DNA of 64,000 nt, taken from the IMG/VR virus record IMGVR_UViG_3300027749_000070, positions 1-64,000 of that record. One strand, written 5' to 3'. The notes beneath the pieces were generated by a model. It had not been told where the DNA came from, made no database searches, and saw only the letters and a list, made by a program, of their open reading frames with translations. The position numbers were made by a program, and so were the translations under genes. The DNA comes from a virus. Numbering within the stretch: position 1 is the first letter of the stretch; each line of letters opens with the position of its first letter. Below are positions 16,645 to 23,988 of this stretch, piece by piece.

Positions 16645-17433
16645 ATGAGTAAAAAATTATCTATCAACTTAAATAAGCGTTTCTTTCCAGATTTTATCGC
16701 TAAAATACAAGACTTATCCAGTATCAATGACGTTGTAAAACTGAAAATAGAAACTGATAAAGTTTTAATGTATGCCATGAAGGCAAATGATAATGCTGTT
16801 TTAGCATTAAAGAGTTATATACTTCCTACTACAAATTATTTCGATAATTTTAACCAAGAAGATATGTTTGATTTCATTATTGTTAATGCACCAAAGTTTA
16901 TCAAGTCATTAAAATTTTTTGACATTGATACACAAATTAAAATGGATGTAATTTATAAACCACACCATGAAAATGAAGGTGTAATGCAGATACGTTCAGC
17001 ACAATTTACTAATGGTAAATTAAAAATATCTACAATTGGTGGTGAAGATGATAAAATTAGAGATTTGAACGCTGAACTTCTTGAAACTAGAACTGATATA
17101 GAAAATGCTAGTTTTGATTTTCAAATTACTAAACATGATTTTAACGATGTTAAAAAATTATGTGCTATTGATTCGGAAGAAAAAATCTTATCTATTGATA
17201 TAGAAGAAGGAAAAATTGTAGCAAGCGAAATATCTAAATGGGAACTTCAACTAGGAGAAATTGATTCTTCATTTAACCAAAAAATTATTTTCAATAAAAA
17301 GTATTTATCAAATATAAATGGCGACATGGATATGATTAACTTTTATATGTTTGATACATTTATCTTAGTAAAGGATAATATATCTTCACTGATGCTTTCG
17401 TTTGAACAAACTTTTGATGAAGATGATGAATAA
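16645..17433 (+). CDS. 45: T4 gp45-like DNA sliding clamp
   Basis: A 262-residue protein with the two-domain layout of phage sliding clamps: repeated beta strands, acidic surface, and a C-terminus ending in a hydrophobic-acidic tail (LMLSFEQTFDEDDE). NLNKRFFPDFIAKIQDLSSINDVVKLKI near the start and FDFIIVNAPKFIKSLKFF are typical of gp45 homologues. It encircles DNA and tethers the polymerase, and in T4 it also activates late transcription. This second role is interesting here because a phage-specific promoter motif is widespread. Its last codons overlap the next gene. Length is slightly above T4 gp45 (228 residues). Confidence 0.75.
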   Translation: MSKKLSINLNKRFFPDFIAKIQDLSSINDVVKLKIETDKVLMYAMKANDNAVLALKSYILPTTNYFDNFNQEDMFDFIIVNAPKFIKSLKFFDIDTQIKMDVIYKPHHENEGVMQIRSAQFTNGKLKISTIGGEDDKIRDLNAELLETRTDIENASFDFQITKHDFNDVKKLCAIDSEEKILSIDIEEGKIVASEISKWELQLGEIDSSFNQKIIFNKKYLSNINGDMDMINFYMFDTFILVKDNISSLMLSFEQTFDEDDE

Positions 17434-17713
17434 GAACATTGATACCGAAGAAGAGTTGATGAAAATTTTGGTAGAAGAATTATCAAAAGAAGTTGATAAA
17501 CAGGTCATTAATGATGTAATGGCTTCTATGAAAATTATTGATGAATTTAATTTAAAACTTAAAGAAATTAAAGCTTTTAATAGAGAAATACAAATTGATA
17601 ATATATTATACGGTACTAATAATGCACTTCTAGAAATAGAAAAGACAGAAGAATATAATAAATTATCAGATGAACTTAAACAAGAATATATTAAAAATGG
17701 TAGATTATTATGA
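17417..17713 (+). CDS. Small paralogous protein 1 (NRExQID motif)
   Basis: Not recognised. About 98 residues from the ATG at 17417 (ATGs at 17423 and 17426 are also in frame; the TTG further upstream is unlikely). It overlaps the clamp gene's end, implying coupled translation. The C-terminal half holds KAFNREIQIDNIL...IEKTEEYNKL, a motif repeated in the next two genes. Highly charged and helical. Location after the clamp gene may point to a replication-associated role, which is inference. Confidence 0.6.
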   Translation: MKMMNKNIDTEEELMKILVEELSKEVDKQVINDVMASMKIIDEFNLKLKEIKAFNREIQIDNILYGTNNALLEIEKTEEYNKLSDELKQEYIKNGRLL

Positions 17714-18021
17714 CACAAAGCTTAATAGGACATAAAAGTCCAGATATTCAAACAGGTATTGTATTTGCGCCATATATTCATATGGAATCAACCGCAATAA
17801 TAGAATCATCCTTGCTTAAAAAAGCTGAAATAAAGGTTAAAGCAATTAACCGTGAAAGACAAATAGACTCGATTTTAGAAGATAAAGATTTTATACCAAT
17901 GGATATAAAAGAAACTGCCGAATATAAAGAGTTTGAAAATACATATATGAAACCTTTAACAGGTATAAAAAGTAGATATGCAATAGCATCAATTGGAAAT
18001 GAGTATAAAAAAACAAACTAA
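17710..18021 (+). CDS. Small paralogous protein 2 (NRExQID motif)
   Basis: Not recognised; 103 residues. The start codon overlaps the stop of the previous gene (ATGA). Residues about 50-78 (KAINRERQIDSILEDKD...IKETAEYKEF) match the same segment in the neighbours at 17417 and 17999. The N-terminal halves of the three proteins differ. This suggests a shared C-terminal interaction module after variable heads. Confidence 0.65.
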   Translation: MTQSLIGHKSPDIQTGIVFAPYIHMESTAIIESSLLKKAEIKVKAINRERQIDSILEDKDFIPMDIKETAEYKEFENTYMKPLTGIKSRYAIASIGNEYKKTN

Positions 18022-18475
18022 AGAAGAACTAATAGATAAATGGGAACCAGTTTTAGATAAAATGGGATTATCTGGTGATAAAAAAGATTGGATGGCTCAA
18101 TATGCAGAGGCGCAATCAACAGCAGACGCTAATAATAGCAGCTCGTTATGGAACCAACAAATTGCACAATTAGGTGGAACCGCAAGTGATCCTTTTTCAG
18201 CAGCAATTTTTCCAGTAGTTAGAAGAGTTGCAGCAACAACCATATCAAATGGTGATGTTGAACTTTTGAAAAAGGCTGAAAATATGGTGATAGCTGTCAA
18301 TCGTGAAAAACAAATTGATTCTATATTAGAAGATAAAGATCCTACACTTATATCAATAGAAGATACCGAAGAATATAAAGAATATCTAAATAGCGGTTTA
18401 GTTTCAGTCAAACCTATGTCTGCTCCATCTGGATTGTTATATTTTCTGGACTATAAATATGATGATAAAAAATAA
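17999..18475 (+). CDS. Small paralogous protein 3 (NRExQID motif)
   Basis: Not recognised; 158 residues from the ATG at 17999, overlapping the previous gene by 23 nt. The N-terminus is helical and charged (KEELIDKWEPVLDKMGL). The middle, GGTASDPFSAAIFPVVRRVAATTISNGD, is Gly/Ala-rich. Residues about 100-130 (IAVNREKQIDSILEDKD...IEDTEEYKEYL) are the strongest copy of the motif shared by this trio. A related REERINQILED tail ends the protein at 24385-24879. Confidence 0.65.
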   Translation: MSIKKQTKEELIDKWEPVLDKMGLSGDKKDWMAQYAEAQSTADANNSSSLWNQQIAQLGGTASDPFSAAIFPVVRRVAATTISNGDVELLKKAENMVIAVNREKQIDSILEDKDPTLISIEDTEEYKEYLNSGLVSVKPMSAPSGLLYFLDYKYDDKK

Positions 18476-19587: not shown

Positions 19588-20685
19588 TTATTTTAATATA
19601 AAATGTTCTTCAATTAATGAGTTTTTGGAAGAATTTATACTACGCTTTGTTATGCACAAATTAGAAATATCAGCAATTTCTTCAGCAGGTATATTATTGG
19701 AAAAGCCATAAAAAGTAGATATTTTATGATCTATTGTTGGATATAACTTACTTGTAGAAGTGTTAGACAAATAACCTTTTATGAACTCATTATCATAGTA
19801 GTCATATCCTTCCCATTTTTCATATAATTCTTTTTTAAATTTATTTGTAAAATTTCTTACTTTCTTTTTGTAAATTTCCCAATCAGTCAATAGCTCATCT
19901 TTAATTACAAATCCATTTATCTTTTTAGTTTCCAAAATCTTATAATATATTTCTTTTACTTGTGAAACATTTTCAACACCATATTTTTCTATACAAGTAT
20001 TTTTAATTTTTTCACGAATTTTTAATATATTATTTTTGTAATTATTTTTATGCTCTTCTGTTTTAAAAATCCAGTCAACTCCATATTTTTCTATGAATGT
20101 GTTCCTAATTTTGCTAACAATTACATCTTTATTTTCGCTAATTCCTTTTTTAAATTTGTCAGTTTTTGAATAAGAATCAACACCATATATCTCAATTAGT
20201 GTTTTTTTAGATTTTTCTTTAAATTCATTAGAAGACATCCATTTCTTATTTTGTTCTTTTGATTCTTGCGTCTTAAACCAAGAATCAACTCCATATTTCT
20301 CTAACATTGTTTTCTTTCCTTTTTTTGAGCCCTTTTTAATGCCTTTCCATTTTAAAGATTCAGTTTCTTTAAACTCGTTTGTTTGTGAGTATGATTTAAC
20401 TCCATATTTTTCTATACATGTTTTTTCACGCTCTATATTTTTACATTTAAAGCAAGAATAATATCCTTTATTATTTCTTTCAGTGTTAACATGGTATTTA
20501 TTTATTGACATTTCTGTTTCAGAAGAGCATATTTCGCATATTGCTGTAATTCTGTTATTTGAACCTTTTGGTATATTTAATGGATTTACAGATATTTCTT
20601 TTTCTTTTATCAGATAACCCAATTTTTCATAATATGATTTATTTCTTTGATTTATTTTAACATTAATTTCCTTTTCTTTTATCAT
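19588..20685 (-). CDS. HNH homing endonuclease with KYG repeats
   Basis: A 365-residue free-standing endonuclease. The N-terminus has CEICSSE...SCFKCK, a likely zinc ribbon. Residues about 95-235 hold repeated (I/L)EKYGV(D/E/K)(S/N)xx(K/Q)TxxFK units of about 25-45 residues, presumably DNA-reading modules. The C-terminus (PTIDHKISTFYGFSN... IADISNLCITKRSINSSKNSL) is an HNH nuclease. It lies 90 nt upstream of, and opposite to, the broken polymerase gene, the position expected for an endonuclease that split that gene. The same N-terminal scheme with a different nuclease domain is seen at 34386. Confidence 0.8.
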   Translation of the reverse strand: MIKEKEINVKINQRNKSYYEKLGYLIKEKEISVNPLNIPKGSNNRITAICEICSSETEMSINKYHVNTERNNKGYYSCFKCKNIEREKTCIEKYGVKSYSQTNEFKETESLKWKGIKKGSKKGKKTMLEKYGVDSWFKTQESKEQNKKWMSSNEFKEKSKKTLIEIYGVDSYSKTDKFKKGISENKDVIVSKIRNTFIEKYGVDWIFKTEEHKNNYKNNILKIREKIKNTCIEKYGVENVSQVKEIYYKILETKKINGFVIKDELLTDWEIYKKKVRNFTNKFKKELYEKWEGYDYYDNEFIKGYLSNTSTSKLYPTIDHKISTFYGFSNNIPAEEIADISNLCITKRSINSSKNSLIEEHFILK

Positions 20686-20775: not shown

Positions 20776-21517
20776 ATGAATAAAAATGAAAAACTCGAAA
20801 AATTAGAGTTATTAAAAAACAAAGCGAGCGAGCTGAAAAAGGACGTGGATTATTATAATGCACTCCAGCTCGCTCTTTTTTAGCCCCCACCCACTTGTGG
20901 TTGGGGGCATAGGACTAAAATTAGTATTAAACGGCAGCTATGGCGCATTTGCAGCAGCATATTTTGTATTGTTCAATAACCACGTTGCTTCCAGTATTAC
21001 TGCACAAGGTAGAGATTTAACTAAAACAATGAATCGTGTTAATGAAGATTATTGGTATAATCAATGGCATTTAGATACATTATTACATAATGACGTTTGT
21101 ATAAGAAATGTTAAACAAATTATAGAAACTAATCATGTTAGCATCTATGCGGATACTGATAGCTGTTTCTCGGAAACACTTGTGAACACAAACAATGGAG
21201 AAAAAACAATTGAAAATTGGTATAATGAAAACATCAAAAATGGATCAGCAGGTGAAACAATTAAAGGTCACGAATCGGTTTTAACAAATGATAAAATATT
21301 AAATTGGTCTGAAAGTAATAAAATTTATTATACTCCGGTTAAAAGAATTATTAGACATAAAGTATCTAAGCCGAAATGGAAATTGAAAACTAAATCTGGC
21401 AAAGAAATTATAGTTACTAACGACCATTCTATGATAGTGTTTAGAGACGGTATTAAATTGGAAATTAAACCATCAGAAATATTAAAAACTGATAAAATTT
21501 TGGTAATTAAAAATTAA
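20776..21517 (+). CDS. 43: DNA polymerase B, central fragment, with internal gap and N-intein
   Basis: Read in two frames. From ATG 20776, 34 codons encode the helix before motif B, ending NALQLAL, then TTT-TAG. From 20918 another frame continues KLVLNGSYGAFA (motif B, Kx3NxxYG) to YADTD, the catalytic motif C. The two fit seamlessly if 40 nt (20878-20917) are skipped. A +1 slip on U6 would instead insert 13 residues. The frame-two ORF also has an ATG at 20858, which would give a useless short start. After YADTD a 118-residue intein N-half starts SCFSETLV and contains the TxxH block (VTNDHS), then stops. The exonuclease domain and motif A are absent from the window. Confidence 0.8.
20826..20875. 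repeat. GC-rich 10-bp inverted repeat in polymerase fragment
   Basis: GAGCGAGCTG (20826-20835) pairs with CAGCTCGCTC (20866-20875) across 30 nt and is followed by six T. It could act as a terminator or as an RNA structure just before the frame break. Codons here (GCG AGC GAG CTG, AAG GAC GTG) are unusually GC-rich for this genome. Confidence 0.65.
20878..20917 (+). other. Candidate translational bypass element
   Basis: A 40-nt gap in the polymerase frame: TTT, stop TAG, then the hairpin GCCCCCACCCAC-TT-GTGGTTGGGGGC (20883-20908, one mismatch), then ATAGGACTA. The possible take-off codon is CTT (Leu, 20875) and the landing codon CTA (Leu, 20915), with AGGA just before landing. T4 gene 60 has the same order: stop codon, hairpin, Shine-Dalgarno-like landing aid. 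Confidence 0.5.
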
Positions 21518-21545: not shown

Positions 21546-22655
21546 ATGGAACTAAATAAAAAATTTATAGAATGGTTTAATAAAAATAAAAACGCAGAAG
21601 AATATAATAAAATATTCAATTTGTATTTTAATAATCTATCCAAATGTAGAATTTGTAATAATCCAATATATTATTATGATTCTACATTTAGAATAGATAA
21701 ATCAGGAATTTTGCAATTACATAAAAAATCATGTTTAACATCTAAAAATGTAAATAAAGAATATACATTATCCATATGTGAAGAATGTTTGATTAAAAAA
21801 TATCCAGAATATAATAACAAAAATAAGCCAAAGGTTTTTAATCAAATGAATTATTTAACTGAATATGCTTTTAATATACCAAATGACATTTCTTTAATTT
21901 GGATGAAAGAAAAATATGCTATTACAGAAGAAAATCTAACAAAAAAACATGGCAAAAAAATTGGCAAAGAAAAATGGATAAATTATTGTAATAAACAATC
22001 CAAAACTAATACATTTGAATATAAGAAAGAAAAATATGGTTGGGATAAAGAAAAATTTGACGACTATAACCGTTCAAGATCGGTAACATTAGAAAATTTG
22101 ATAAAAAGGAATGGTACTGAAGAAGGTTTAAATATTTGGAAAAATTATTGTGATAGGCAAAAATATACGACAAGTCTAAACTATTTTATAGAAAAAAATG
22201 GATTGGAAAAAGGCACTGAAATATATGAAAATTTTTGTAAAAAAAGATTATTTGGAGCAGGATATTCAGAGGTATCTAAAAAATTATTTGATGAACTGAA
22301 AAAACGTTTTGTTAATAATAATTATACAGTATATTACGCTGAAAATGAGTGGTATTTTTGTGAAAAAGATAAAGGATATTATTTATTGGATTTCTTTATT
22401 AAAGAATTGAATATTGGAATAGAATTTAACGGAGATATATGGCACGCAAATCCACTTAAATACAAGCCACATGATAAGCCTATTTTATTTCAAAAAGATA
22501 TTACTGCCGAATTTATTTGGCAAAAAGATAAAATAAAAAATGATTTTCTGAAAACAAAATTAGATAAATTACTAATAATTTGGGAATCAGATTTTTACAA
22601 AGACGGAATTGATAGAACAATAGATAAAATATTAAAAGAAATAAATGATAAATAA
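21546..22655 (+). CDS. Homing endonuclease (Vsr-like/EDxHD) inside split intein
   Basis: A 369-residue endonuclease encoded between the two intein halves. The N-terminus has CRICNN...CEECL, a probable zinc site. Residues about 120-240 hold repeated helical units (KKHGKKIGKEKWINYC, KRNGTEEGLNIWKNYC, EKNGLEKGTEIYENFC). The C-terminal 130 residues form a Vsr-like nuclease with LDFFIKELNIGIEFNGDIWHANP and LLIIWESDFY, matching the EDxHD family known from fractured genes with split inteins. It presumably cuts intein-free polymerase alleles. Its end overlaps the next gene by 11 nt. Confidence 0.8.
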   Translation: MELNKKFIEWFNKNKNAEEYNKIFNLYFNNLSKCRICNNPIYYYDSTFRIDKSGILQLHKKSCLTSKNVNKEYTLSICEECLIKKYPEYNNKNKPKVFNQMNYLTEYAFNIPNDISLIWMKEKYAITEENLTKKHGKKIGKEKWINYCNKQSKTNTFEYKKEKYGWDKEKFDDYNRSRSVTLENLIKRNGTEEGLNIWKNYCDRQKYTTSLNYFIEKNGLEKGTEIYENFCKKRLFGAGYSEVSKKLFDELKKRFVNNNYTVYYAENEWYFCEKDKGYYLLDFFIKELNIGIEFNGDIWHANPLKYKPHDKPILFQKDITAEFIWQKDKIKNDFLKTKLDKLLIIWESDFYKDGIDRTIDKILKEINDK

Positions 22656-23988
22656 AGTAGAACATGAAAAAATAGAATATTTTTTTGATGAAATAGAATC
22701 GTGTGAAGTGATTGGTAATTTTGAAGACGAATATGTTTATGATGTTGAGGTGGATGATGAAACACATACATTTATTGGAAATGATATATTAGTACATAAT
22801 TCGCTTTTTGTATCATTTAAACCAGCTATGGATCATTGTGATTGGAGAAATTTATTTTTTGATAATTTAGATAAACTAACAAAAAAGTTTTTCATAATAA
22901 CAGGTAATTCACAAGTTAATACAGACAATCCTAATTATCATGGCTCTTGGAGTTTTGATCCAAATGATGACCCTGAAACAATTGGTCATATTAAAGACAT
23001 AATCGAAACTGATTGCGATTATATAATTGTTGATGGTTTTTGGATTAAAAATCGTGATTTCGAAAAATTCATATCCGAAAATAATTATCAATCAAAACTT
23101 AAATGGAATTGGTCAAATGAACTTGACTTCATACAAGGTTTAGATTATTACCGATATGCTGGTTATTTCAAGAAATGTCTTGAAGAATATGCAGATAGCT
23201 ATGGTGTGACTAATAAGGAAGATTTTGAATTAGAAAGAATTAGTGAATCAGTTATTTATTTAGCTAAGAAAAAGTATATTCAACACATCGTACATGAAGA
23301 TGGTATTGATTATGATAGATTAACTTATTTATATCCAAAAGGAGTTGAACTTGTTAGATCTTCTACGCCATTATTTGCGAGAGATAAAATTGTGGATATT
23401 ATTAAATACTTATTTACTAATCCAGATACATTTACTATTAGAGAATTACTTAAATTGGTTAAGAACCTTAGAAAAGAATTTGACTTATGTGTCCCAGATA
23501 AGATAGATGATATCTGTATGCAATCGTCATGTTCAAACTATGAGGAAAAAGTTCTTAATGATAAAGAAAAATTAGAGTTTATTAATGGTGCACACTTTGC
23601 GGTTAAAGCATCAGCTTATTATAACCACTTATTACACAAGCATAAAGATATACAAGCTAAATATGACTTCATCAAATCAGGAACTAAAATTAAGTATTAC
23701 TATTGTAAAGACACTACTATTGGTAAAGTATTTGCTTATATGCGTGGTTCTTATCCAATTGAAATAGCACCCGAAATAGATCTAAATGAACAATTTGCAA
23801 AATGTATCTTATCACCGATTAACTCGATTATTGAGCCATTGGGTCTTCCAGAAATTACAAAAAGACTTTCGGTCGTGTTAGATATATTTGGTGGATCTTT
23901 ACAAAAGAAGAAAAAAGAAGAACAAGAAGAGGATGATTATAGTGATGAAGAATACAACAATAGAAAATGGGATAATTGGGATTATTAA
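22645..23988 (+). CDS. 43: DNA polymerase B C-terminal fragment with C-intein
   Basis: 447 residues. Residues 1-52 are the intein C-half: VYDVEVDDETHTFIGNDILVHN is split here as VYDVEVDDETHTF (block F) and ILVHN (block G). The C-extein begins SLFVSF, so trans-splicing to the fragment ending YADTD would restore YADTDSLFVSF, the exact family B motif C. What follows is the palm, thumb and C-terminal region of a T4-like polymerase, including IYLAKKKYIQHI, corresponding to the KKRY region. The tail is acidic (EEQEEDDYSDEE) and may replace the clamp-binding end. Together with the other fragments it should form the replicative polymerase. Confidence 0.85.
   Translation: MINKVEHEKIEYFFDEIESCEVIGNFEDEYVYDVEVDDETHTFIGNDILVHNSLFVSFKPAMDHCDWRNLFFDNLDKLTKKFFIITGNSQVNTDNPNYHGSWSFDPNDDPETIGHIKDIIETDCDYIIVDGFWIKNRDFEKFISENNYQSKLKWNWSNELDFIQGLDYYRYAGYFKKCLEEYADSYGVTNKEDFELERISESVIYLAKKKYIQHIVHEDGIDYDRLTYLYPKGVELVRSSTPLFARDKIVDIIKYLFTNPDTFTIRELLKLVKNLRKEFDLCVPDKIDDICMQSSCSNYEEKVLNDKEKLEFINGAHFAVKASAYYNHLLHKHKDIQAKYDFIKSGTKIKYYYCKDTTIGKVFAYMRGSYPIEIAPEIDLNEQFAKCILSPINSIIEPLGLPEITKRLSVVLDIFGGSLQKKKKEEQEEDDYSDEEYNNRKWDNWDY

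Follow-up and report, generated by a model that had tools for sequence, protein, structure and literature searches.

A hairpin-containing insert in a phage DNA polymerase gene belongs to a family of putative translational bypass elements linked to a homing endonuclease

We asked how a phage could make its DNA polymerase when the sole PolB palm gene on its contig is broken by a 40-nt insert that contains a stop codon and a hairpin. The locus lies in viral DNA from IMG/VR record IMGVR_UViG_3300027749_000070 (positions 1 to 64,000, one strand), and this whole 64,000-nt stretch is referred to here as the window. The broken gene, 43B, encodes a fragment of a family-B DNA polymerase (PolB). It begins with ATG at 20776 and reads MNKNEKLEKLELLKNKASELKKDVDYYNALQLALF* in frame 1, ending ...NALQLALF before the UAG stop at 20881-20883, and KLVLNGSYGAF follows from 20918 in a different frame. 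With CTT at 20875-20877 as the last codon used, the gap from 20878 to 20917 measures exactly 40 nt, the last three being CTA. A PDB search returned only a weak archaeal PolB match, which aligns KLVLNGSYG with the PolB K...NATYG motif. The features of the locus are as follows.

20776-20877 (+): first coding part of 43B, MNKNEKLEKLELLKNKASELKKDVDYYNALQLAL, whose last codon is the take-off codon CTT (20875-20877); assigned by homology to uninterrupted relatives
20826-20875 (+): 5' stem-loop within the coding sequence, z -6.85 against synonymous recodings (0/300), with covariation; the arm GAGCGAGCTG (20826-20835) pairs with CAGCTCGCTC (20866-20875), and the 3' arm ends on base 1 of the take-off codon
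20878-20917 (+): 40-nt non-coding gap, consisting of TTT TAG, hairpin, spacer and landing codon
20881-20883 (+): UAG stop, one codon past the take-off codon
20883-20908 (+): GC-rich hairpin GCCCCCACCCACTTGTGGTTGGGGGC, first pair 5 nt past the take-off codon
20915-20917 (+): landing codon CTA, which like the take-off codon CTT encodes Leu
20918-21163 (+): resumed polymerase palm, from motif B (KLVLNGSYGAF) to motif C (YADTDS)
21164-21517 (+): N-terminal half of a split intein (PF14890), interrupting motif C (DTDS/CFSETL...)
21546-22655 (+): endonuclease-like ORF between the intein halves; no Pfam match, phrog_22677 of unknown function
22645-23988 (+): C-terminal half of the intein and C-terminal part of the polymerase
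19588-20685 (-): homing endonuclease gene of DUF7487/HNH-like type, immediately upstream of 43B and divergent from it; the insert's proposed mobile partner

Elsewhere in the window, three adjacent ORFs at 17402-18475 share the motif NREKQIDSILEDKD...EYKE and resemble a small tandem paralogous family.

The hairpin at 20883-20908 exceeds every other 26-mer of the window in GC content (1 of 63,974; the window is 28% GC). A first-pass annotation, made from the letters alone, had recognised its composition and given it a 12-bp stem; the stem has 10 bp with one mismatch. Relative to shuffled sequence, the hairpin by itself folded with a z of -2.3 and the stretch 20820-20920 with a z of -5.75, the difference being due to a second strong stem formed by the upstream coding sequence (20826-20875). 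The AGGA that had been noted before the landing codon is indeed present in the window, but it is peculiar to it, is not conserved among relatives and so is no shared feature. A Lys-rich helix ahead of the take-off codon, considered as a possible nascent-peptide signal, is identical in intact relatives.

A palm-sequence search identified 56 viral loci, and an alignment-based search enlarged the set to 80. Inserts were located by frameshift-aware alignment against uninterrupted relatives. This gave 32 distinct inserts in 42 contigs (the window counted), 36-48 nt long and placed at six codon positions within ~10 codons around motif B; about 20 close relatives, the comparison that the first-pass annotation had called for, were uninterrupted and ungapped at the site (...NALQLALKLVLNGSYGAF...). 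A further search, with the neighbouring endonuclease as query, added two inserts, L122 and L110, of which one occupies a new position and the other sits at a contig edge. Several family contigs are near-copies of one another. The interruption of the window's polymerase frame was thereby confirmed: because independent assemblies carry inserts of this kind at the corresponding site, and intact relatives carry none, the insert reflects neither chance nor sequencing error. The insertion sites, with take-off and landing codons, are given below (slash, insertion point).

LQLAL/K: 15 inserts, CTT or CTG to CTA, type I (the window's type)
LQLA/L: 5 inserts, GCT to GCT or GCA, type I
KLV/L: 2 inserts, GTT to GTT or GTA, type I
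NG/S: 1 insert, GGT to GGT, type II
NGS/Y: 1 insert, TCT to TCA, type II
NGSY/G: 8 inserts, TAT or TAC to a non-cognate codon, type II

No insert was present in motif B of phage PTm1 or in the huge-phage records, all of which are uninterrupted. A search for the same element in other genes found the pattern CCCCY...RGGGG once per contig in nearly all contigs, the extra matches being one ordinary terminator and two chance matches in coding sequence. In the otherwise near-identical elements L041 and L051, the G run of the hairpin 3' arm differs in length by one G (41 and 42 nt), which changes the gap phase; this could be a sequencing error or natural length tolerance.

Is the interrupted gene still a functional one? 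When the insert was removed, the joined proteins aligned without gaps, with a median dN/dS of 0.12 among carriers; the joined polymerase gene is under purifying selection. Over the 60 codons past the site, L004 (without insert) and L019 (with insert) differ by 6 nt and by no amino acid. Each of 18 insert-bearing contigs contained one motif-B piece and none an intact second copy, with the caveat that contigs may be incomplete, and neither PolA nor PolIII alpha was detected in 10 contigs of up to 508 kb. Neither another palm copy nor a different family of replicative polymerase came to light in contigs of up to 465 kb. Taken together, the gap-free joined protein, the low dN/dS, the near-identity of L004 and L019 and the single copy make a dead gene or an assembly error unlikely.

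The elements share a common anatomy, which was established by computation. The first G-C pair lies 5-7 nt from the take-off codon in 31/31 measured elements (6 nt in 24), at every insertion site, and the resumed codon follows the last G-C pair by 8-11 nt in 28/31. The stop is in most elements the next codon but one after the take-off codon, one codon beyond the A site. In four elements (L010, L018, L047 and L110) it follows the take-off codon immediately, with spacing as in the others, and this fixes the take-off codon unambiguously. The hairpin sequences themselves are highly variable, with many compensatory pairs. An intrinsic terminator (5' stem plus T-run) was considered as an identity for these structures and rejected, since the GCT-AGA/GGA/CGA elements have no T-run.

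Landing and take-off codons are synonymous in 24/32 elements (all 22 of type I, L010 and L122), often with a different wobble base. In the 8 NGSY/G elements a cognate landing codon is absent, and most of them also lack the 5' stem-loop. After the Tyr take-off codon of these elements (L019, L020, L043, L050, L052, L069, L073 and L075), the landing codon is AGC, AAC, GAC, TAA or CAA, with a middle A in 7/8 and a Tyr codon in 0/8, perhaps reflecting two-of-three pairing.

In type I, the coding sequence before the take-off codon is recoded into a strong stem-loop, the 3' arm of which ends at or next to base 1 of that codon. Compared with synonymous recodings of the same peptide, this stem-loop had z values of -4.7 to -8.4 in 21/21 elements tested and was unmatched in 300 recodings each, whereas 20 intact relatives had a mean z of about -0.8 (range +1.7 to -3.4). 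Among type-II elements an excess was seen in L075 only (z -3.8; L122 was outside the tested set). Covariation across 14 elements included three pairs changed on both sides, and pairing was 86% as against 31-42% when the arms were slid.

We then weighed other ways in which the polymerase frame might be restored. A +1 ribosomal frameshift, or slippage on the U6 run, before UAG would keep 13 gap-encoded residues and yield the peptide DVDYYNALQLALFSPHPLVVGGIGLK. The resume frame of the window is open through the gap, reading FSPHPLVVGGIGL, and the U6 run abuts the stop, so that the slip named as an alternative in the first-pass annotation remains formally possible for the window alone. It does not hold for the family: the resume frame is closed in 21/30 gaps, often by TGA immediately before the landing codon, and gap lengths are spread over the three phases as 9/14/9, for which one direction of shift is insufficient. 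A single frameshift therefore cannot serve the family. Moreover, the U run is missing from the GCT-AGA/GGA/CGA and GTT-TGA elements, and the ~20 intact relatives are all ungapped here, and we rate a frameshift as highly improbable. Stop-codon readthrough, with an in-frame insert of 12-16 residues, could apply only to gaps that are multiples of three (9/32, 6 of these among the 10 type-II gaps) and not to the 40 nt of the window. Type-II gaps of this kind usually contain one stop, but L073, L051 and L057 contain two in-frame stops, and the L069 element recurs at 40-41 nt in its close relatives L019 and L043. Readthrough is the reading to which we give the least credence of all; for six of the ten type-II gaps it is left open.

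Removal of the insert from the RNA, by an unknown tiny intron or a processing event, has in its favour that exact excision would restore the frame at any length, the hairpin ends would draw the junctions close and equal take-off and landing codons would leave the junction ambiguous. Nevertheless, an Rfam search of the window gave zero intron or ribozyme matches, and we know of no self-splicing intron anywhere near as short as 36-48 nt. The junction codons agree in meaning but often not at the wobble base; such synonymous codons fit re-pairing of a peptidyl-tRNA, and RNA removal needs no such match. In addition, the fixed spacing counts from the codon, and the recoded stem-loop ends at the take-off codon. 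On balance, RNA removal is improbable. Group I and group II introns were considered as specific candidates and rejected, as no conserved intron RNA structure was found by Rfam in the window and the gap is only 40 nt. Alternatively, translation could terminate at the stop and restart past the hairpin, making the polymerase one more split piece, with DVDYYNALQLALF alone as the expected peptide. The polymerase is already in pieces (43A, 43B and the intein halves), and split polymerases can function (PMC2988022). Start codons, however, are not conserved among the first 12 resumed codons (ATG in 1/30, GTG in 1/30, TTG in 9/30), the cut would fall within the motif-B helix, and the synonymous landing codons would be left unexplained. 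Restart thus has very little to recommend it, less even than a frameshift.

The best explanation is programmed translational bypass of the 40 nt, from CTT to CTA, by an element that spread with an endonuclease-linked mobile cassette. We assign this a probability of roughly 85% on sequence evidence, in the absence of any experiment. The same jump had been proposed at first pass, and it is now supported by codon synonymy (22/22 type-I elements), spacing, gap phases, resume-frame stops and purifying selection. Bypass calls for two ORFs of one protein around a non-coding gap, and this criterion is met by the ungapped homologs and the dN/dS of about 0.12. In the proposed mechanism, a ribosome would translate 43B up to the Leu codon CTT and be stalled by the GC hairpin at or near the A site or entry, as inferred by analogy with T4 gene 60. 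Peptidyl-tRNA(Leu) would then release CTT and the ribosome slide across the gap, with the 5' stem-loop, as it refolds to the rear, probably providing the forward drive. Re-pairing of the peptidyl-tRNA with CTA would allow decoding to restart at AAA, and the predicted product is an uninterrupted ...NALQLAL-KLVLNGSYG... polymerase with the junction peptide DVDYYNALQLALK. The jump, its efficiency and the role of the stem-loop as its motor are all inferred, there being no RNA, ribosome-profiling or peptide data. A single mechanism may not cover all elements, given the NGSY/G group without a cognate landing codon and mostly without a 5' stem-loop. A broader idea, possible but to our minds somewhat doubtful, is that several motif-B codons host portable hairpin inserts, that skipping of a hairpin 6 nt past the P-site codon depends on little more than geometry, that type II, without cognate landing codon or 5' stem-loop, uses a mechanism unknown from T4 gene 60, and that the inserts are immunity tags moving with dedicated endonuclease lineages.

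The protein encoded directly upstream of 43B contains DUF7487, has a C-terminal HNH-like pattern (TIDHKIS...NLCITKRxINSxK) and has PHROG matches to homing endonucleases. In the compared set, such an endonuclease lay directly upstream of 16/29 inserts and 0/20 intact loci (Fisher p 2.5e-5, uncorrected for kinship), and L110 and L122, found endonuclease-first, raise the insert loci with an endonuclease to 18. No endonuclease was detected at 13/29 compared inserts, the more distant intact loci L081 and L082 have a related but separate endonuclease upstream, and on phylogenetically independent pairs, which are too few, the link fell short of significance. The inserts are scattered in their distribution, and on the polymerase tree the insert state requires at least five changes on supported branches. 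The expectation that the endonuclease is inherited with the adjacent insert was met: endonuclease clade mostly tracks insert type, not polymerase kinship (exceptions, L024 and L043). For example, the polymerase of L010 groups with those of the window and L011 (type I), and its endonuclease with those of L019, L050 and L122 (type II). Near-identical phages differ mainly in the module, with neither insert nor endonuclease in L004, the insert only in L020 and both in L019. In L027 and L052, which are ~95% identical, the stretch from endonuclease to insert is replaced, and homology returns exactly at the insert end. We infer that insert and adjacent DUF7487 endonuclease form a mobile cassette, as proposed for T4 mobA and gene 60. 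It is likewise inferred that the endonuclease cuts the empty site; its target, within conserved motif-B sequence, is probably disrupted by the insert, which would protect the carrier. No insert was detectable where DUF7487 endonucleases lie beside other genes (topoisomerase-like and others). DUF7487, a Pfam family of unknown function (19588-20685 and L114-L152), appears to be the repeat or zinc-ribbon portion of an extensive family of phage homing endonucleases whose C-terminus is HNH-like; other members adjoin topoisomerase-like genes in L125, L141 and L146.

The first-pass annotation had held the endonuclease responsible for splitting the gene nearby, a claim that was not borne out. Some 40-170 kb separate 43A, which encodes the polymerase N-terminus, from 43B in insert-bearing L019, L047 and L050 and in intact L023 and L044; whether or not the insert is present, these phages encode a replicative polymerase in pieces that are far apart in the genome. 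Intact relatives without the endonuclease are also split, with 43A >100 kb off, and the DUF7487 endonuclease does not account for the split; a role as the insert's partner in a mobile cassette suits it better.

To our knowledge, T4 gene 60 has for decades been the single well-studied case of bypass in bacteria or phages, and essential and incidental features could therefore be separated by mutation only. The >30 natural variants at six positions of one gene, together with the uninterrupted alleles that nearly identical phages carry, make the rules of bypass (hairpin spacing, 5' stem-loop and codon matching) directly testable. If, as is probable, ribosomes do jump these inserts, gene 60 would become one case beside a natural family of >30, and this suggests that the pairing of bypass with a homing endonuclease has arisen more than once. 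The carriers are large aquatic phages, and the inserts interrupt the best-conserved region of the one DNA polymerase gene detected in them, a gene that ordinary gene finders would truncate in many large phages. The Tenacibaculum phage relatives suggest a Bacteroidota host, which is untested; a host search found no bacterial genome contigs with a window-type polymerase.

The arrangement of the locus has known counterparts. Tenacibaculum phage PTm1 (AP019524) has a split polymerase, a DUF7487 ORF, an intein-N palm piece, a VSR endonuclease and a C-terminal piece in the same order, and the window ORF at 21546-22655 sits where PTm1 has the VSR endonuclease; unlike the window, PTm1 has no motif-B insert. 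The layout of intein N-terminal half plus endonuclease (21164-21517, 21546-22655 and 22645-22800 in the window) also occurs in L018, L022 and L053. Aeromonas phages 25 and 44RR likewise have gp43 split into 43A and 43B, with a homing endonuclease in phage 25, but no bypass element is described there (PMC2988022), and here the polymerase parts can lie tens of kilobases from each other. We found no published bypass in a phage DNA polymerase in the open-access literature (a non-exhaustive search, with subscription papers and preprints outside its scope). The mitochondrial byps of Magnusiomyces capitatus are also numerous short inserts skipped in translation, some with imperfectly matched take-off and landing codons (PMC5009743). 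In contrast to byps, the polymerase inserts are found in one gene only, one per genome, and concern phage and bacterial ribosomes, and they have strict hairpin spacing and a 5' stem-loop and are linked to a homing endonuclease.

The closest parallel is T4 gene 60, in which a 50-nt programmed bypass occurs together with mobA (PMC5009743, PMC11194080, PMC2988022), between GGA take-off and landing codons, with a hairpin that occupies the A site and a 5' stem-loop that refolds in the wake of the ribosome (PMC11194080, PMC5009743). Both systems have a short non-coding gap with a stop and a hairpin, synonymous take-off and landing codons, a 5' coding stem-loop before take-off and a homing endonuclease at the locus, against which the insert is proposed to protect (PMC5009743, PMC11194080, PMC2988022). 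The likeness drawn at first pass is therefore sound for stop, hairpin and endonuclease, gains the 5' stem-loop that had been missed, and loses the SD-like landing aid, which is not conserved. Unlike gene 60, the polymerase elements lie in a different gene, with unrelated sequence, a length of 36-48 nt and no sign of homology. Their hairpin starts 5-7 nt past the take-off codon, whereas that of gene 60 contains it, and their stop is usually one codon further on. They also occupy six insertion sites, include a second type that lacks a cognate landing codon and are accompanied by an endonuclease of another family.
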